Shown: in pieces, positions 57,996 through 64,000 of the stretch
Layout: every line of letters begins with the position of its first letter
Numbering within the stretch: the stretch's first letter is position 1
DNA from: an uncultured Verrucomicrobiota bacterium
Lineage (GTDB): Bacteria; Verrucomicrobiota; Kiritimatiellia; CAIVKH01
Assembly: GCA_937872895.1 (NCBI GenBank)
Contig: CALMUP010000009.1
Span: 1-64,000 of the forward strand
Length of the DNA stretch: 64,000 bases
Reading direction: 5' to 3'
Notes under the pieces: generated by a model
Told to the model about the DNA's origin: nothing
The model's database searches: none
What the model saw: only the letters and a program-made list of their open reading frames with translations
Program-made: the position numbers and the translations under genes

Positions 57996-59039
57996 CTATC
58001 CCGCCGGCAACGCGATCACGATCGCCGCGCCACCCAGGCGCTCGCTGCGCTCCACCCGGATCGATCCGCCATGCAGCAGGACGATCTCCCGCACGATGGC
58101 CAGGCCAAGGCCGGATCCCCGATGGGTGGAGTGGCGCCCGCGGAAGAACCGGTCAAACACCCGCTCCCGGTCCTCCTCGGGAATGCCCGGCCCCGAATCC
58201 TCGATGCTCCAGACGAGTCGATGGTCCGTGGCCTCCATCAAGGCGACATGGATCTCCCCGCCATCACCCGTGAAGGCATGGGCATTGTCGAACAGGTTCG
58301 AAAAAACCTCGTGCAGCAGGACCTCGTTGCCGCGCACGAGAAGCATGTCCGGCGCGTCCACCGCGGCGGAGAGGTGAATGCCGTCCATCGCCTCGCGTGC
58401 CTCGTCGATCCAGCGGCGGAGCAGCGGGGCAAGGGCCACGGGTTGGAAGGAATCGCGCATCGACCGGTCCAGGCGCGACAGGGCCAGCAGTTGTTCCACC
58501 GTCTCGTTCAGGCGGGCCGTTTGCTCGAGGATCTCCCCGAGGGTCTCGCGGTACTCGTCGGCCGATCGTTCCGCCTGCAGCGCGACATCCGCCGCGCCAC
58601 GGATCGCCGTCAACGGCGTGCGCAACTGGTGCGAGGCATCGGCGCTGAAATGCTCGAGCCGCCGCACCGCGGCCGCATACCGGTCGAACGCCTCGTTGAT
58701 CGTGTCGGCCAGCCGCGCCAGTTCGTCATCATGGGGAAGCGGAGGGATCCGTTCATCCAGATGGCCTTGCCGGATATGCTCCGCCGTGGTCACAACCTTG
58801 TTCAGCGGGCGCAGCAACCTGCCGGCGATGCGCCAGGCAACCAGCAGAACGACCGGCACCGAGGCGGACAGGACCCCCAGGAACGCGACAATCTCGGGGA
58901 TCTCGTTCCGGAAGGGCGTCTGTTCGCTGTGTGCCTCGTGCAACTCGATCGAGGTGATGGTTCCGAGGAGCAGGATGTAGTTGAACGCCAGCAGCAACAG
59001 CAACCAGCCGAAATACCTGCTGCGAAGGGATGTTTTCAT
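57996..59039 (-). CDS. Sensor histidine kinase
   Basis: 347 residues. Two membrane helices (YFGWLLLLLAFNYILLLG and VAFLGVLSASVPVVLLVAW) flank a very short periplasmic loop of about 20 residues, then a HAMP domain, a HisKA box FSADASHQLRTPLTAIRG (phospho-His137) and an ATPase with NLFDNAHAF, EDSGPGIPEEDRERVF and GSGLGLAIVREI. The small loop suggests sensing within the membrane. Coupled to its response regulator by an ATGA overlap. Confidence 0.94.
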   Translation of the reverse strand: MKTSLRSRYFGWLLLLLAFNYILLLGTITSIELHEAHSEQTPFRNEIPEIVAFLGVLSASVPVVLLVAWRIAGRLLRPLNKVVTTAEHIRQGHLDERIPPLPHDDELARLADTINEAFDRYAAAVRRLEHFSADASHQLRTPLTAIRGAADVALQAERSADEYRETLGEILEQTARLNETVEQLLALSRLDRSMRDSFQPVALAPLLRRWIDEAREAMDGIHLSAAVDAPDMLLVRGNEVLLHEVFSNLFDNAHAFTGDGGEIHVALMEATDHRLVWSIEDSGPGIPEEDRERVFDRFFRGRHSTHRGSGLGLAIVREIVLLHGGSIRVERSERLGGAAIVIALPAG

Positions 59040-59731
59040 TCGTCTGCCTTCACCATGAACCCGAGGCCGCGCACGGTGCGGATCAGCTTGTGATCGTGTT
59101 CGCCATCGATCTTGTCCCGCAAGCGGGACATCAACACGTCGATCACATTGTCCATCGAGGTCATGCGCGACTGCACCTTCCAGACATCGCGGCTCAAGGT
59201 CTGCCGGGAGATGGGCTGGCCCAGGTTGGTGACCAGGTACACCAGTACATCGAACTCGCGCGGCGTGCAGTCGATGGTGCGACCGGCGCGTTGCACGGTG
59301 CGGGCGACCAGGTCGATCGAGAGGTCGCCCGTTTGCAGGAGGGAATGCGGGTGCTGGCCGGAGCGGCGCAGGTGCGCCCGGATCCGCGCCGACAATTCCT
59401 GGAAGTCGAACGGCTTGACCAGGTAGTCGTCCGCCCCGAGGTCCAGCCCCGCGACCTTGTCCGTGACCTTGTCCCTCGCGGTAAGCAGGATGACGGGAAG
59501 GGTCGATCCGCCGGATCGCACATCGCGCAGGAGGTCCAGGCCATCCCCGTCGGGCAGGCCCAGGTCGAGCACGACGAGGTCGATTTCCTCGGAAGCCAGC
59601 GCGTGCCGGGCGGCCGCGACCGTATCCGCCGCATGTACATGGAAGCCCATCTCGGACAAGCCCTTGGCCACGGTGCGCCGGATCGCCGCGTCGTCCTCGA
59701 CCAGCAGGATGGTGGCCGATGGCGGGTTCAT
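59036..59731 (-). CDS. OmpR-family response regulator
   Basis: 231 residues. Receiver domain with ILLVEDDAAIRRTV, the phosphoacceptor in VVLDLGLPDGDG (Asp56), and switch Lys in VILLTARDKV. Winged-helix output domain with RTIDCTPREFDVLVYLV and VDVLMSRLRDKI-like VIDVLMSRLRDKI. Divergent from the yceI-led operon, so it may regulate that operon or the ArnT-like gene on the other side. Confidence 0.95.
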   Translation of the reverse strand: MNPPSATILLVEDDAAIRRTVAKGLSEMGFHVHAADTVAAARHALASEEIDLVVLDLGLPDGDGLDLLRDVRSGGSTLPVILLTARDKVTDKVAGLDLGADDYLVKPFDFQELSARIRAHLRRSGQHPHSLLQTGDLSIDLVARTVQRAGRTIDCTPREFDVLVYLVTNLGQPISRQTLSRDVWKVQSRMTSMDNVIDVLMSRLRDKIDGEHDHKLIRTVRGLGFMVKADE

Positions 59732-59815: not shown

Positions 59816-60400
59816 ATGACATCAAAACTTCGACGCTTGTTCAATGGCCAATCCATCGCCCCCCTGTTCGTCCTCCTCACCGCCTCCGCCGCGTGGGCCG
59901 CGCCCGGCGTGTCGATCCGCTTTCACGGCGAATCGACGCTGCACGGGTTTGACGGCCATGCCGAAACGGCAGATGTCCACATGGAGGAAACGCCGGAGGG
60001 GGTCGGCCGGATCGTGGCGACCGTTTCCGTGCCCACCATGACCACCGACCACGCAGCCCGGGATCGGCGCATGGCCGCGATGTTCGACGCCGCAACGTTC
60101 CCCATCCTGACCGGAAGCGCCACGGCCGCGGATCTCGTGGCGGCCACGGACGGCAGTACGATGCCCCTTGACGTGGTGATCGCCGGTCATACCAACACCC
60201 TCACCGCGACCTGCCGCGTAATCCCTGGCGAGGCCGCAGATGGCGGGGCAAGCCGCGAATGGTCCTTTCCGGTCTCCCTGCGCGCCTTCGGCTTGAAGGC
60301 TCCTTCCGTGATCGGCTTGATCCGGGTCAGCGATACGGTGGAGGTGACCGCCCGGTTGAATGCCGAGGCATGGAACATGGTGAACGAGGGTGCCCGATGA
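59816..60400 (+). CDS. YceI-like periplasmic lipid-binding protein
   Basis: 194 residues from ATG 59816 (in-frame ATG 59801 is possible). Signal peptide ending ASAAWA. The mature part follows the YceI lipocalin-like pattern: SIRFHGESTLHGFDGHAETA, DHAARDRRMAAMFDAATFP and SFPVSLRAFGLKAP. YceI proteins bind isoprenoid or other amphiphiles in a barrel. First gene of the phenolic-lipid-type operon; its stop codon overlaps the type III PKS start. A carrier for the lipid product or precursor fits. Confidence 0.82.
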   Translation: MTSKLRRLFNGQSIAPLFVLLTASAAWAAPGVSIRFHGESTLHGFDGHAETADVHMEETPEGVGRIVATVSVPTMTTDHAARDRRMAAMFDAATFPILTGSATAADLVAATDGSTMPLDVVIAGHTNTLTATCRVIPGEAADGGASREWSFPVSLRAFGLKAPSVIGLIRVSDTVEVTARLNAEAWNMVNEGAR

Positions 60401-61569
60401 GCGCCCTGATTCACCGCATCGCGACCGCTGTTCCCCCTTTCGCTTATCATCAGGAGTATGCCGCCGACTGCATGAAACGCTGGGTCAAGGACCGGGTCTT
60501 GCAACGCATGGTGCACCACGTGTACCGGCAGTCCGGCATCGAGCGCCGGTTCAGCGTGTTGCCCGACTTCCAGCCCGGCGCGACCGGCGGCATTTTCGGC
60601 GAGCAACCCGATGGCACCCTGGTCGAGCCGACCACCGGCCAGCGGAATGACCTGTACCGGCTGGCCTATCCCGCCCTGGTCGAGGACGCGGTGCGGCGAG
60701 CCTTCGCGCAGACGCCCTGGATCCGTCCCGGGGACGTCACCCACCTGGTCACCGTGTCATGCACCGGATTCTGCAACCCCGGCCCCGATCTCCACATTGC
60801 CGCGACCTTTGGCCTGCGCGCCGATGTCGAGCGTTACCACATCGGTTTCATGGGCTGTTATGCGGCTTTTCCCGCCCTGCGCATGGCCGATCAGTTTTGC
60901 CGCGCCAACCCGGACGCCGTGGTGCTGGTGGTTGGCGTGGAACTGTGCAGCCTGCACCTGCAGATCAAGCCGAGCTCCGACCTGCTGCTTGCCAATGCGC
61001 TGTTCGCCGACGGCGCGGCGGCCGTGCTGGTCAGCGCCCGGCCGCTGCCCGATGGCGCATGCGGGGCGCGGCTCGAGGCGTTCGCCACCCGCCTGGTGCC
61101 CGACAGCGCGCGGGACATGGCCTGGACCCTCGGCGACCGCGGGTTCGACATGGTGCTCAGCAGTTATGTGCCGAAGATCCTCGCCCTGCATGCCAGGCAC
61201 CTCGTCGCCGATCTCCTTGCCGGGTGCCGCGAGGGCGGATCCGGCATCACCGAATGGGCGGTTCACCCCGGCGGCAAGGCCATCCTCCAGGCCTTCGAGC
61301 AGCAGATGGGTTGGTCCGGCGAAACCGGCGCTCTTGCCCATGCCCACCGGATCCTGCGCCGGTATGGCAACATGAGCAGCGTGACCATCCTGTTCGTGCT
61401 GGAGGCCGTGCTGGCCGATCCCGCCTTCGCCGAGGCGACGCAGGTGGGTGCCCTGGCCTTCGGTCCCGGCCTGACCGTGGAGTTCGCCCACCTGACCTTG
61501 TGCGGAACCCGTCCGGTGGCGTTGCCGACCGAACCGTGCGCCACACACCAAAGCGCTTCCCATGCGTAA
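60397..61569 (+). CDS. Type III polyketide synthase
   Basis: 390 residues. Chalcone-synthase-fold catalytic triad: GFMGCYAAFPALRMA (Cys154), WAVHPGGKAIL (His) and RRYGNMSSVTILFVLE (Asn). Bacterial enzymes of this type extend fatty acyl starters with malonyl-CoA to alkylresorcinols or alkylpyrones. The neighbouring methyltransferase-monooxygenase fusion favours the Srs-like phenolic-lipid route. Start overlaps the yceI stop codon; its end overlaps the next gene by 8 bp. Confidence 0.93.
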   Translation: MSALIHRIATAVPPFAYHQEYAADCMKRWVKDRVLQRMVHHVYRQSGIERRFSVLPDFQPGATGGIFGEQPDGTLVEPTTGQRNDLYRLAYPALVEDAVRRAFAQTPWIRPGDVTHLVTVSCTGFCNPGPDLHIAATFGLRADVERYHIGFMGCYAAFPALRMADQFCRANPDAVVLVVGVELCSLHLQIKPSSDLLLANALFADGAAAVLVSARPLPDGACGARLEAFATRLVPDSARDMAWTLGDRGFDMVLSSYVPKILALHARHLVADLLAGCREGGSGITEWAVHPGGKAILQAFEQQMGWSGETGALAHAHRILRRYGNMSSVTILFVLEAVLADPAFAEATQVGALAFGPGLTVEFAHLTLCGTRPVALPTEPCATHQSASHA

Positions 61570-62110
61570 GATCACCGCCACCGCATCGCTCGCCCTGCTC
61601 CTGTTGTCGGCCATTCCCTCGGTCGCCGAAGTGGTGCGCTCCGGCTGGGTGCCCAACCGGCTGATGCCCCAGGGCCAGGTCCAGTTGGTGCGGCAGACCA
61701 ACGGTACCGCCATCGTGGTGCTGCTCGACAGCCGGTTCCTCGACCGCGTCGTGGCCGCGATCGTGGAGAAGGAGCAACGGAACTGGCCCTCGGATCACCC
61801 CGATGCGCGCGCCTACATCGAGGGACTGAAGGCGGCGCGCGAGGCGGTACGCCGGGAAACCGGGGGCCGTGGCCGCGAGACGCTGAAGATCGCCTTCGAG
61901 CTCGATCCGGACGATGGCCGCATCGAGTGGTCCACCGGCGCGGTCGAACGGAATGAACGGCACCTGCTCGCCATGCCGGAACCGCGGATTCTCCTCGCGC
62001 ACCGTCCGGCGCGCGACTACTTAGACCGCAATGCCGTGCTGATCCTCATGGATAGCTTCGGCCTTGCCGACAGCGCGGCCGCGACTCTGCTCGCGGAGGC
62101 ACGGCCATGA
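61562..62110 (+). CDS. Secreted hypothetical protein of the phenolic-lipid operon
   Basis: 182 residues with signal peptide (ATASLALLLLSAIPSVAE). Not recognised. The mature part has QVQLVRQTNGTAIVVLLDSR, a basic helix (GLKAAREAVRRETGGRGR) and KIAFELDPDDGRIEW; it ends LADSAAATLLAEARP. One or two late hydrophobic stretches only. It overlaps both neighbours by 4-8 bp, so it is a co-translated component. Lipid binding or a chalcone-isomerase-like helper role is possible, but no motif supports it. Confidence 0.7.
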   Translation: MRKITATASLALLLLSAIPSVAEVVRSGWVPNRLMPQGQVQLVRQTNGTAIVVLLDSRFLDRVVAAIVEKEQRNWPSDHPDARAYIEGLKAAREAVRRETGGRGRETLKIAFELDPDDGRIEWSTGAVERNERHLLAMPEPRILLAHRPARDYLDRNAVLILMDSFGLADSAAATLLAEARP

Positions 62111-64000
62111 CCGGCCAACCCGCCTACACGACAGCCCAGCGGTGGTTCGCGCTCGGTCTTGGCTGCACCGTGCATGCCCTGTTTGCCGCTTCGGTGGCGA
62201 TGATGGCCTTCGCCCTGTACCACGGCCTGCATGCGGGATGGGGACGGCTGACCGGCGGCTGGGCCTGGCTCGTGAATGGCCTGTTGCTTGTGCAATTCCC
62301 GCTCGCCCACTCCTGGTTGCTCGGAGACCGGGGGCGCGCATGGATGGCCAAGCTCTTGCCCATGAACCTGGGTCGCCCGCTCGCCACCACGACCTTTGCC
62401 GGAATCTCCAGCCTGCAGGTGCTCGCCTGCTTCGCCGGGTGGTCGCCGCTCTCCGATGGCCCGCTATGGACGCCCGGGCCAGGGGTTCACCGGGCCATGA
62501 CCGCCGGGTATGCCGGCGCGTGGCTCCTGCTCGTGCTCGCCATGCGGGAGGCCGGGCTGTCGTTGCAGACCGGCAGCCTCGGCTGGCGTTCGGTCTGGCG
62601 CGGGGAGGCGCCGGCGTTTCCGGCGCTGCCGGTTTCCAAGCCGCTGCACCAGGTGATACGCCAGCCGATTTATGCCGCCTTTGTCCTGATCCTCTGGCTG
62701 GCTCCGGGCTGGACGCCCGAAAAAATCGCCGTGGCTTCGCTCTGGTCGGTGTATTGTGTGGTAGGCTCCTACCGGAAGGAGAAGCGGTTTGTCCGTTACC
62801 ATGGCGATGATTTCCGCGCGTATCAGCAACGAGTCCCGGCGTGGATTCCCCGGTGGCGGCGGAGGCAACCCGTGACGGCCACGCCGTATGATGCGGAGGT
62901 CGCGGTGATCGGTGGTGGTCCGGTCGGCCTCCTGCTGGCCTCCTTGCTGGCCAAGGCCGGTCATGCCGTGCTGGTCTTCGAACCACAGCCCGAGGGGCCG
63001 ACGCGCTCCATGGCGATCGGGATCACGCCGCCCTCCCTCGATATCCTGGATGAACTCGGATTGGCCGGGACGTTTATCCATCGCGGTGTTTCGATTCGAC
63101 AAGCCGTCGTCCATGAGAATGGACGCATGATCGCCCGGCTGGACATGGGTGGAGGCGGGAATGGCGATTCCTGCATCCTTTCGCTTCCCCAGGCCGACAC
63201 GGTGCAGGTGTTGCGCCAGCAGGTGGCGACCCACGACCGGGTGCGCATGATGTCGGGATGGCGGGTCACCGGACTCGCTCAGGATCGCCAGGGTGTCAAC
63301 GTGGTCGCGGTGGAGAGCGAGTATGGTGTACCCAGGAATTTCCGGGTAGCCTTCGCGGCCGGGTGTGATGGGGCCCGTGGCGTGACCGCGACGCTGGCCG
63401 GCATCGGGAGGCGTGTGTCCACCTATGCCCCGCGGTTCCGGATGTTGGACGCGGTGGACCACACGGATCTGGGTGCCGAGGCGCATTTGTTTTTCGGCCG
63501 TGAACGTCCGGTGGAATCCTTCCCGTTGCCGCGCGGGCGACGCCGCTGGATCGTGCGGTCCGGCTGGGGCGGGCGCGATGATCTGGCGGAATCCCTGCCC
63601 GAAGCGATCGCCCGCCTCACCGGGTATGTGATCCATCCGGTGGATGTGCTCGACCATAGCTCCTTCCAGCCGCGCCGCGCCATGGCATCGACCTTTGCGC
63701 GCGGACGGGTGGCCTTGTGCGGCGATGCCGCGCATCTGATGAGTCCGATCGGCGGACAGGGCATGAATACCGGGTTTGGCGATGCCGCGTTCCTCGCGCG
63801 AGCCTATTCCGACATCCTGCGGCATGGCCGTGACCCGGCGCCCTGGATGCATGCCTACAACCGGTGCCGTCGCCGGGCCTTTTGCACGGCGGCCACGCGC
63901 TCCGCCCTGGGTATGCGGCTCGGCGTGTTGCGTGGTTCCGTCGGGTCGTGGTTCCGTCGCCATGCCGTCGTGGTGCTGCTCGGTGCCACCGCCACCCGCC
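62107..64000 (+). CDS. Fusion: membrane ICMT-like methyltransferase and FAD monooxygenase (3' partial)
   Basis: Open from ATG 62107 (ATGA overlap with the previous gene) to the window end: at least 631 residues without a stop codon. Residues 1-255 form about five membrane helices ending in ICMT-like motifs (IRQPIYAAFVLILWL; RYHGDDFRAYQQRVPAWIP). From residue 263 an FAD-dependent aromatic hydroxylase domain starts: VAVIGGGPVGLLLASLLAK (glycine loop at 269), DGARG (Asp421) and LCGDAAHLMSPIGGQGMNTG (Asp540), the three hallmarks of PHBH-type monooxygenases. In Streptomyces griseus the separate SrsB (methyltransferase) and SrsC (FAD hydroxylase) act after type III PKS SrsA on phenolic lipids; here both activities sit on one chain. 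Confidence 0.87.
   Translation, partial: MTGQPAYTTAQRWFALGLGCTVHALFAASVAMMAFALYHGLHAGWGRLTGGWAWLVNGLLLVQFPLAHSWLLGDRGRAWMAKLLPMNLGRPLATTTFAGISSLQVLACFAGWSPLSDGPLWTPGPGVHRAMTAGYAGAWLLLVLAMREAGLSLQTGSLGWRSVWRGEAPAFPALPVSKPLHQVIRQPIYAAFVLILWLAPGWTPEKIAVASLWSVYCVVGSYRKEKRFVRYHGDDFRAYQQRVPAWIPRWRRRQPVTATPYDAEVAVIGGGPVGLLLASLLAKAGHAVLVFEPQPEGPTRSMAIGITPPSLDILDELGLAGTFIHRGVSIRQAVVHENGRMIARLDMGGGGNGDSCILSLPQADTVQVLRQQVATHDRVRMMSGWRVTGLAQDRQGVNVVAVESEYGVPRNFRVAFAAGCDGARGVTATLAGIGRRVSTYAPRFRMLDAVDHTDLGAEAHLFFGRERPVESFPLPRGRRRWIVRSGWGGRDDLAESLPEAIARLTGYVIHPVDVLDHSSFQPRRAMASTFARGRVALCGDAAHLMSPIGGQGMNTGFGDAAFLARAYSDILRHGRDPAPWMHAYNRCRRRAFCTAATRSALGMRLGVLRGSVGSWFRRHAVVVLLGATATR

Follow-up and report, generated by a model that had tools for sequence, protein, structure and literature searches.

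Operons that combine a type III polyketide synthase (PKS), a methyltransferase and an FAD enzyme give alkylquinones in Streptomyces griseus (srsABC) and M. smegmatis (pkqABC) (PMC9927152), SrsB having been called an isoprenylcysteine carboxyl methyltransferase (ICMT) and SrsC a monooxygenase (PMC6669644), and the cyanobacterial hidABC operon makes hierridin B (PMC10896814). In the synthesis of type III PKS phenolic lipids and quinones, it is still open whether methylation or hydroxylation comes first and how greasy intermediates are handed on. Gene fusions reveal which pathway enzymes work side by side. Here we describe a Verrucomicrobiota locus in which a membrane methyltransferase domain and a flavin hydroxylase are encoded as one protein. 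We refer to the analysed DNA as the window; it covers the first 64 kb of contig G000:C9, which is 403 kb long and belongs to a 3.87-Mb assembly with Verrucomicrobia as its nearest named relatives.

Organization of the cluster

The cluster opens with a YceI-like secreted lipid/isoprenoid-binding protein (59816-60400, plus strand; PF04264, E 7.1e-11), whose start at about 59816 was placed by its signal-peptide-like N-terminus, and continues on the same strand with a type III PKS (60397-61569; PF00195, PF02797), a 182-aa protein with a signal-peptide-like N-terminus (61562-62110), the fusion gene (from 62107), a UbiE-like methyltransferase (contig positions 64098-64832) and a second class I methyltransferase (about 64805-65563), which is the last gene of the cluster. 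From the YceI gene to this last methyltransferase, each start overlaps the preceding stop, indicating a single operon. The first-pass annotation had noted a type III PKS and a YceI-type protein nearby, both of which Pfam identifies; it had also placed the fusion directly after the PKS, a position that in fact belongs to the 182-aa protein gene. This small protein has homologues in the same clusters and returned nothing convincing from Pfam or PHROGs. The family extends to assemblies of Desulfuromonadales and Deltaproteobacteria (L102, L053), where its members neighbour a UbiE-like gene.

Divergent from the cluster, on the minus strand, are an OmpR-type response regulator (59036-59731; Pfam Response_reg and Trans_reg_C) and a sensor histidine kinase with HAMP, HisKA and HATPase_c domains (57996-59039; Pfam). 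The sensor kinase is linked to the same cluster in L024, L029, L037, L044 and L057, and the response regulator also does so in L086. Because the pair is conserved beside the cluster in several relatives, this two-component system likely regulates it. Scans of the window found no Rfam match and no promoter or terminator signal above chance.

One reading frame and its occurrence across genomes

An uninterrupted frame runs from the ATG at 62107 past the end of the window at 64000 and, once the sequence is extended as the first-pass annotation had proposed, closes at contig position 64101, giving a product of 664 aa. The annotation's claim that methyltransferase and FAD hydroxylase halves are encoded with no stop between them thus holds, on the evidence of the frame, of domain matches and of full-length homologues. 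In DNA as GC-rich as this, where long frames also occur on the minus strand, openness of the frame is weak proof; the proof is homology, with full-length fused relatives in the same genus (G001, 55% identity) and the same family (G004, 41%), and identities of 41-55% across 12 aligned sequences. The N-terminal half (residues 1-252, 62107-62862, plus strand) holds a membrane methyltransferase domain at residues 1-250, and the C-terminal half (residue 263 on, 62893-64000 and on to contig position 64101) holds a class A flavin monooxygenase at residues 263-645. An AlphaFold model built on the 12 sequences places helices at residues 9-38, 50-72, 93-110, 125-155, 187-198 and 204-232, followed by a low-confidence linker at residues 249-258 (62851-62880) and then the flavin domain.

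In a scan of named genomes, full-length fused relatives were found in Prosthecobacter, in the cultured Brevifollis gellanilyticus NBRC 108608 and in Pontiellaceae. A profile of the methyltransferase half, run over 388 genomes of the phylum, returned 13 close members at 344-403 bits, the next match scoring 105 bits; ten of the 13 lie in frames of at least 663 aa, in which a domain check finds both halves. With duplicates removed, the fusion occurs in at least 19 independent assemblies. Four relatives encode the two parts separately within the same cluster; the genes overlap by 13 bases in different frames in L057 and lie apart from one another in G047, G206 and L086. Such split genes, which the first-pass annotation had regarded as a sign of error, would favour a sequencing or assembly artefact, but the conservation of the fusion in the 19 or more assemblies, that of the cultured Brevifollis among them, rules this out, and we give the idea practically no weight.

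In trees of the hydroxylase half the fused proteins formed one clade in 0 of 200 bootstrap trees, and a single clade was rejected by the AU test (p 1.8e-108); within Verrucomicrobiaceae alone, one fused clade was not rejected (AU test, p 0.10). In the tree of the methyltransferase half, the free forms cluster together (support 90/96) and few changes are needed for the fused forms. These data fit both an old fusion that lost its methyltransferase half several times and separate genes that were joined more than once. Literature searches, made in an open-licence library without most subscription journals, found no description of a fusion of this kind.

Domain assignments and proposed function

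The C-terminal half belongs to the class A flavin monooxygenases. Residues 263-590 match PF01494 (FAD_binding_3) with E 6.5e-45, the flavin motifs GGGPVG, GCDG and CGDAAH (residues 269, 419 and 538) are intact, and the closest fold is that of the 4-nitrophenol monooxygenase PnpA (6ain, E 7.8e-23), an enzyme whose chemistry turns a phenol towards a quinone. The half shares fold and motifs with PnpA, PHBH and UbiH; among the listed class A flavin monooxygenase matches, none carries a membrane methyltransferase domain, in which they differ from the fusion. The PKS has a complete Cys-His-Asn triad (GCYA, HPGG and GNMSS), and its closest solved structures are 4b0n and Pks18 (1ted). It shares with Pks18 a Trp just ahead of HPGG; the position of Trp281 in ArsB is named in PMC9927152. 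As judged from its residues, the PKS may make either a resorcinol or a pyrone.

The N-terminal half is distant from every characterised methyltransferase. Its best curated model is the NCBIfam profile of MddA, a methanethiol S-methyltransferase (NF045656, E 2.5e-17), against which N-halves score 63-98 bits, below the curated equivalog cut-off of 270 bits, whereas true MddA proteins of the same phylum, used as positive controls, score 318-356 bits; identity to MddA proteins is about 22-26%. Pfam searches of this half up to E 10 returned no family, ICMT (PF04140) included. The half nevertheless contains the motifs expected of this superfamily, R185-x-P-x-Y and K224-E225...G233...Y239...P244...P248, and AlphaFold folds it alone into a helical model with a mean pLDDT of 92.7; simple hydropathy marks a single clear membrane segment, and Foldseek gave no significant match to the confident model. 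From these motifs, the helical model and a weak profile match to Ma-ICMT, we assign the N-terminal half to the ICMT/MddA superfamily.

We consider it probable that the fusion is anchored in the membrane and carries out two tailoring reactions in a lipid pathway that starts from a type III PKS; its substrates, the order of its steps, its product and the role of the carrier we infer. The PKS would extend a fatty-acyl starter to a long-chain alkylresorcinol, whose phenolic hydroxyl would be methylated from S-adenosylmethionine by the N-terminal membrane domain and whose ring would be hydroxylated by the cytosolic flavin domain, using NAD(P)H and oxygen, to give a methoxy-hydroquinone that could then be oxidized to an alkylquinone. 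The UbiE-like and second class I methyltransferases would methylate a ring carbon and perhaps also another oxygen, the former step being predicted from the enzyme's family, as in ubiquinone synthesis, and the YceI-like and 182-aa secreted proteins may serve as periplasmic binders or carriers of the product. The motifs, the PnpA fold and the known operons of PKS, methyltransferase and FAD enzyme make it likely that an alkylresorcinol is O-methylated and hydroxylated on its ring at the membrane. Apart from one His-to-Gln change, the PKS catalytic residues, the flavin motifs and the methyltransferase motif are intact. The first-pass annotation had proposed a membrane-bound two-step enzyme for phenolic lipids, a reading that is right in kind: domain searches, motifs, conservation and AlphaFold support the two domain classes, and the two-step activity is what they would imply.

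That single change bears on whether the N-terminal half is catalytic. All 12 fused proteins in the alignment have Gln in place of the His of the RHPxY motif (residues 185-189, window positions 62659-62673), whereas this His is retained in MddA proteins and in two of the three free relatives aligned; the chemistry may be altered, or the half may serve as an anchor. On the latter reading the half, whether plain anchor or degenerate methyltransferase, would only keep the hydroxylase at the membrane near its greasy substrate while the other two methyltransferases do the methylating. We think this improbable: the nine other motif residues (R185, P187, Y189, K224, E225, G233, Y239, P244 and P248) do not vary among 16 diverged sequences, the third free relative has Gln too, and clusters that lack a close UbiE-like gene still keep the fusion. 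Less probable still is a reading of the half as a reductase that uses NADPH and belongs to the steroid 5-alpha-reductase branch of this superfamily. PbSRD5A is indeed the top Foldseek candidate of the right kind (probability 0.51, E 0.16), ahead of Ma-ICMT (E 0.54), but sequence profiles favour methyltransferases, the MddA profile picking nine of nine N-half members (E 1e-17 to 1e-28) and that of isoprenylcysteine methyltransferase matching weakly; moreover, Ma-ICMT, itself a weak profile match, is the only on-topic sequence match in the PDB.

The enzyme could also act as described and yet serve a different end, its product being a methylated, hierridin-like alkylresorcinol that works as a structural or signalling lipid and not as a redox quinone. 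This alternative, which overlaps with our preferred reading as far as the enzyme is concerned, is a substantial possibility, though we rate it below even chances. In its favour, hierridin B is made by the same enzyme classes, and the genome encodes a separate, stronger UbiE match and several UbiA-family genes elsewhere, so that an ordinary prenylquinone is probable and the product of the cluster would probably be additional to it. Against it, a UbiE-like methyltransferase and a YceI protein would be the typical company of quinones. Although no MqnA-type gene was found in this genome, those same UbiE and UbiA-family genes do not support a host without ordinary quinones.

Recurrent fusions and comparison with known systems

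When profiles of the cluster genes were run against all loci, the hydroxylase proved to be joined to other partners elsewhere. Its C-terminus is fused to a UbiE-like methyltransferase in L049 (311-2341, 676 aa) and L069 (7080-9083, 667 aa), one of these two assemblies being labelled Zixiibacteriota, and to the second class I methyltransferase in L030 (6800-8554, minus strand, 584 aa) and L073 (3403-5163, 586 aa). A type III PKS is fused to the hydroxylase N-terminus in L168 (394-2733, 779 aa), a less certain case from one assembly with no second example. All five fusions lie within type III PKS clusters. That the hydroxylase is also fused to these three further enzymes of the pathway speaks for their acting together on one substrate, and four different pathway partners on one hydroxylase go beyond an isolated fusion, which suggests, as far as gene architecture can indicate, that the pathway enzymes form a physical multi-enzyme assembly. 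This wider pattern is more surprising than the single fusion and is the part most worth following. More speculatively, and with rather little confidence, we propose that the hydroxylase may lie at the centre of an assembly bound to the membrane, in which an alkyl-phenol is handed on among the PKS, the hydroxylase and up to three methyltransferases, and that its product, in Verrucomicrobiota and relatives, may be a ring-methylated, methoxylated polyketide quinone serving as a ubiquinone-like electron carrier made without the shikimate/prenyl route. A single-chain membrane enzyme makes both the methylation and the hydroxylation directly testable.

We also looked for relatives of SrsB. An ICMT search of actinobacterial genomes found no PKS-linked member, and a search of plasmids with a free N-half homologue returned only MddA or ICMT-family proteins. 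On a Deinococcus radiodurans plasmid (L144, 4004-6963), a comparable set of three genes, for a PKS, a methyltransferase and an FAD oxidoreductase, is followed by one for a glycosyltransferase.

Among described systems, MddA shares the membrane methyltransferase superfamily of the N-terminal half, but its gene context differs. The hidABC operon and a planctomycetal methyltransferase-oxidoreductase-PKS operon contain the same three enzyme classes as the cluster described here, and that of the planctomycete Saltatorellus ferox also includes a lipoprotein and a lipid/isoprenoid-binding protein; however, no fusion is described in either, their gene order differs, and the planctomycete oxidoreductase is of unassigned role. 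The pkqABC operon of M. smegmatis and Streptomyces sp. MNU77 likewise combines a PKS, a methyltransferase and an oxidoreductase, its alkylquinones serving respiration, but does so with three separate genes, whereas our cluster has a fused protein, two more methyltransferases and secreted proteins. Similar in logic is srsABC, which has a type III PKS, an ICMT-type methyltransferase and an FAD monooxygenase in one operon and produces methylated alkylbenzoquinones; unlike in the window cluster, its genes are separate, and no UbiE-like enzyme, YceI or 182-aa protein is named there. The label "SrsB-SrsC-like", given by the first-pass annotation, is apt by function as described in the literature; the Pfam ICMT model does not recognise the N-terminal half, whose nearest match is MddA. 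The two methyltransferases that follow beyond the window make the pathway richer than SrsABC, and by this analogy of described function the fusion is best read as the logic of SrsB and SrsC in one chain.
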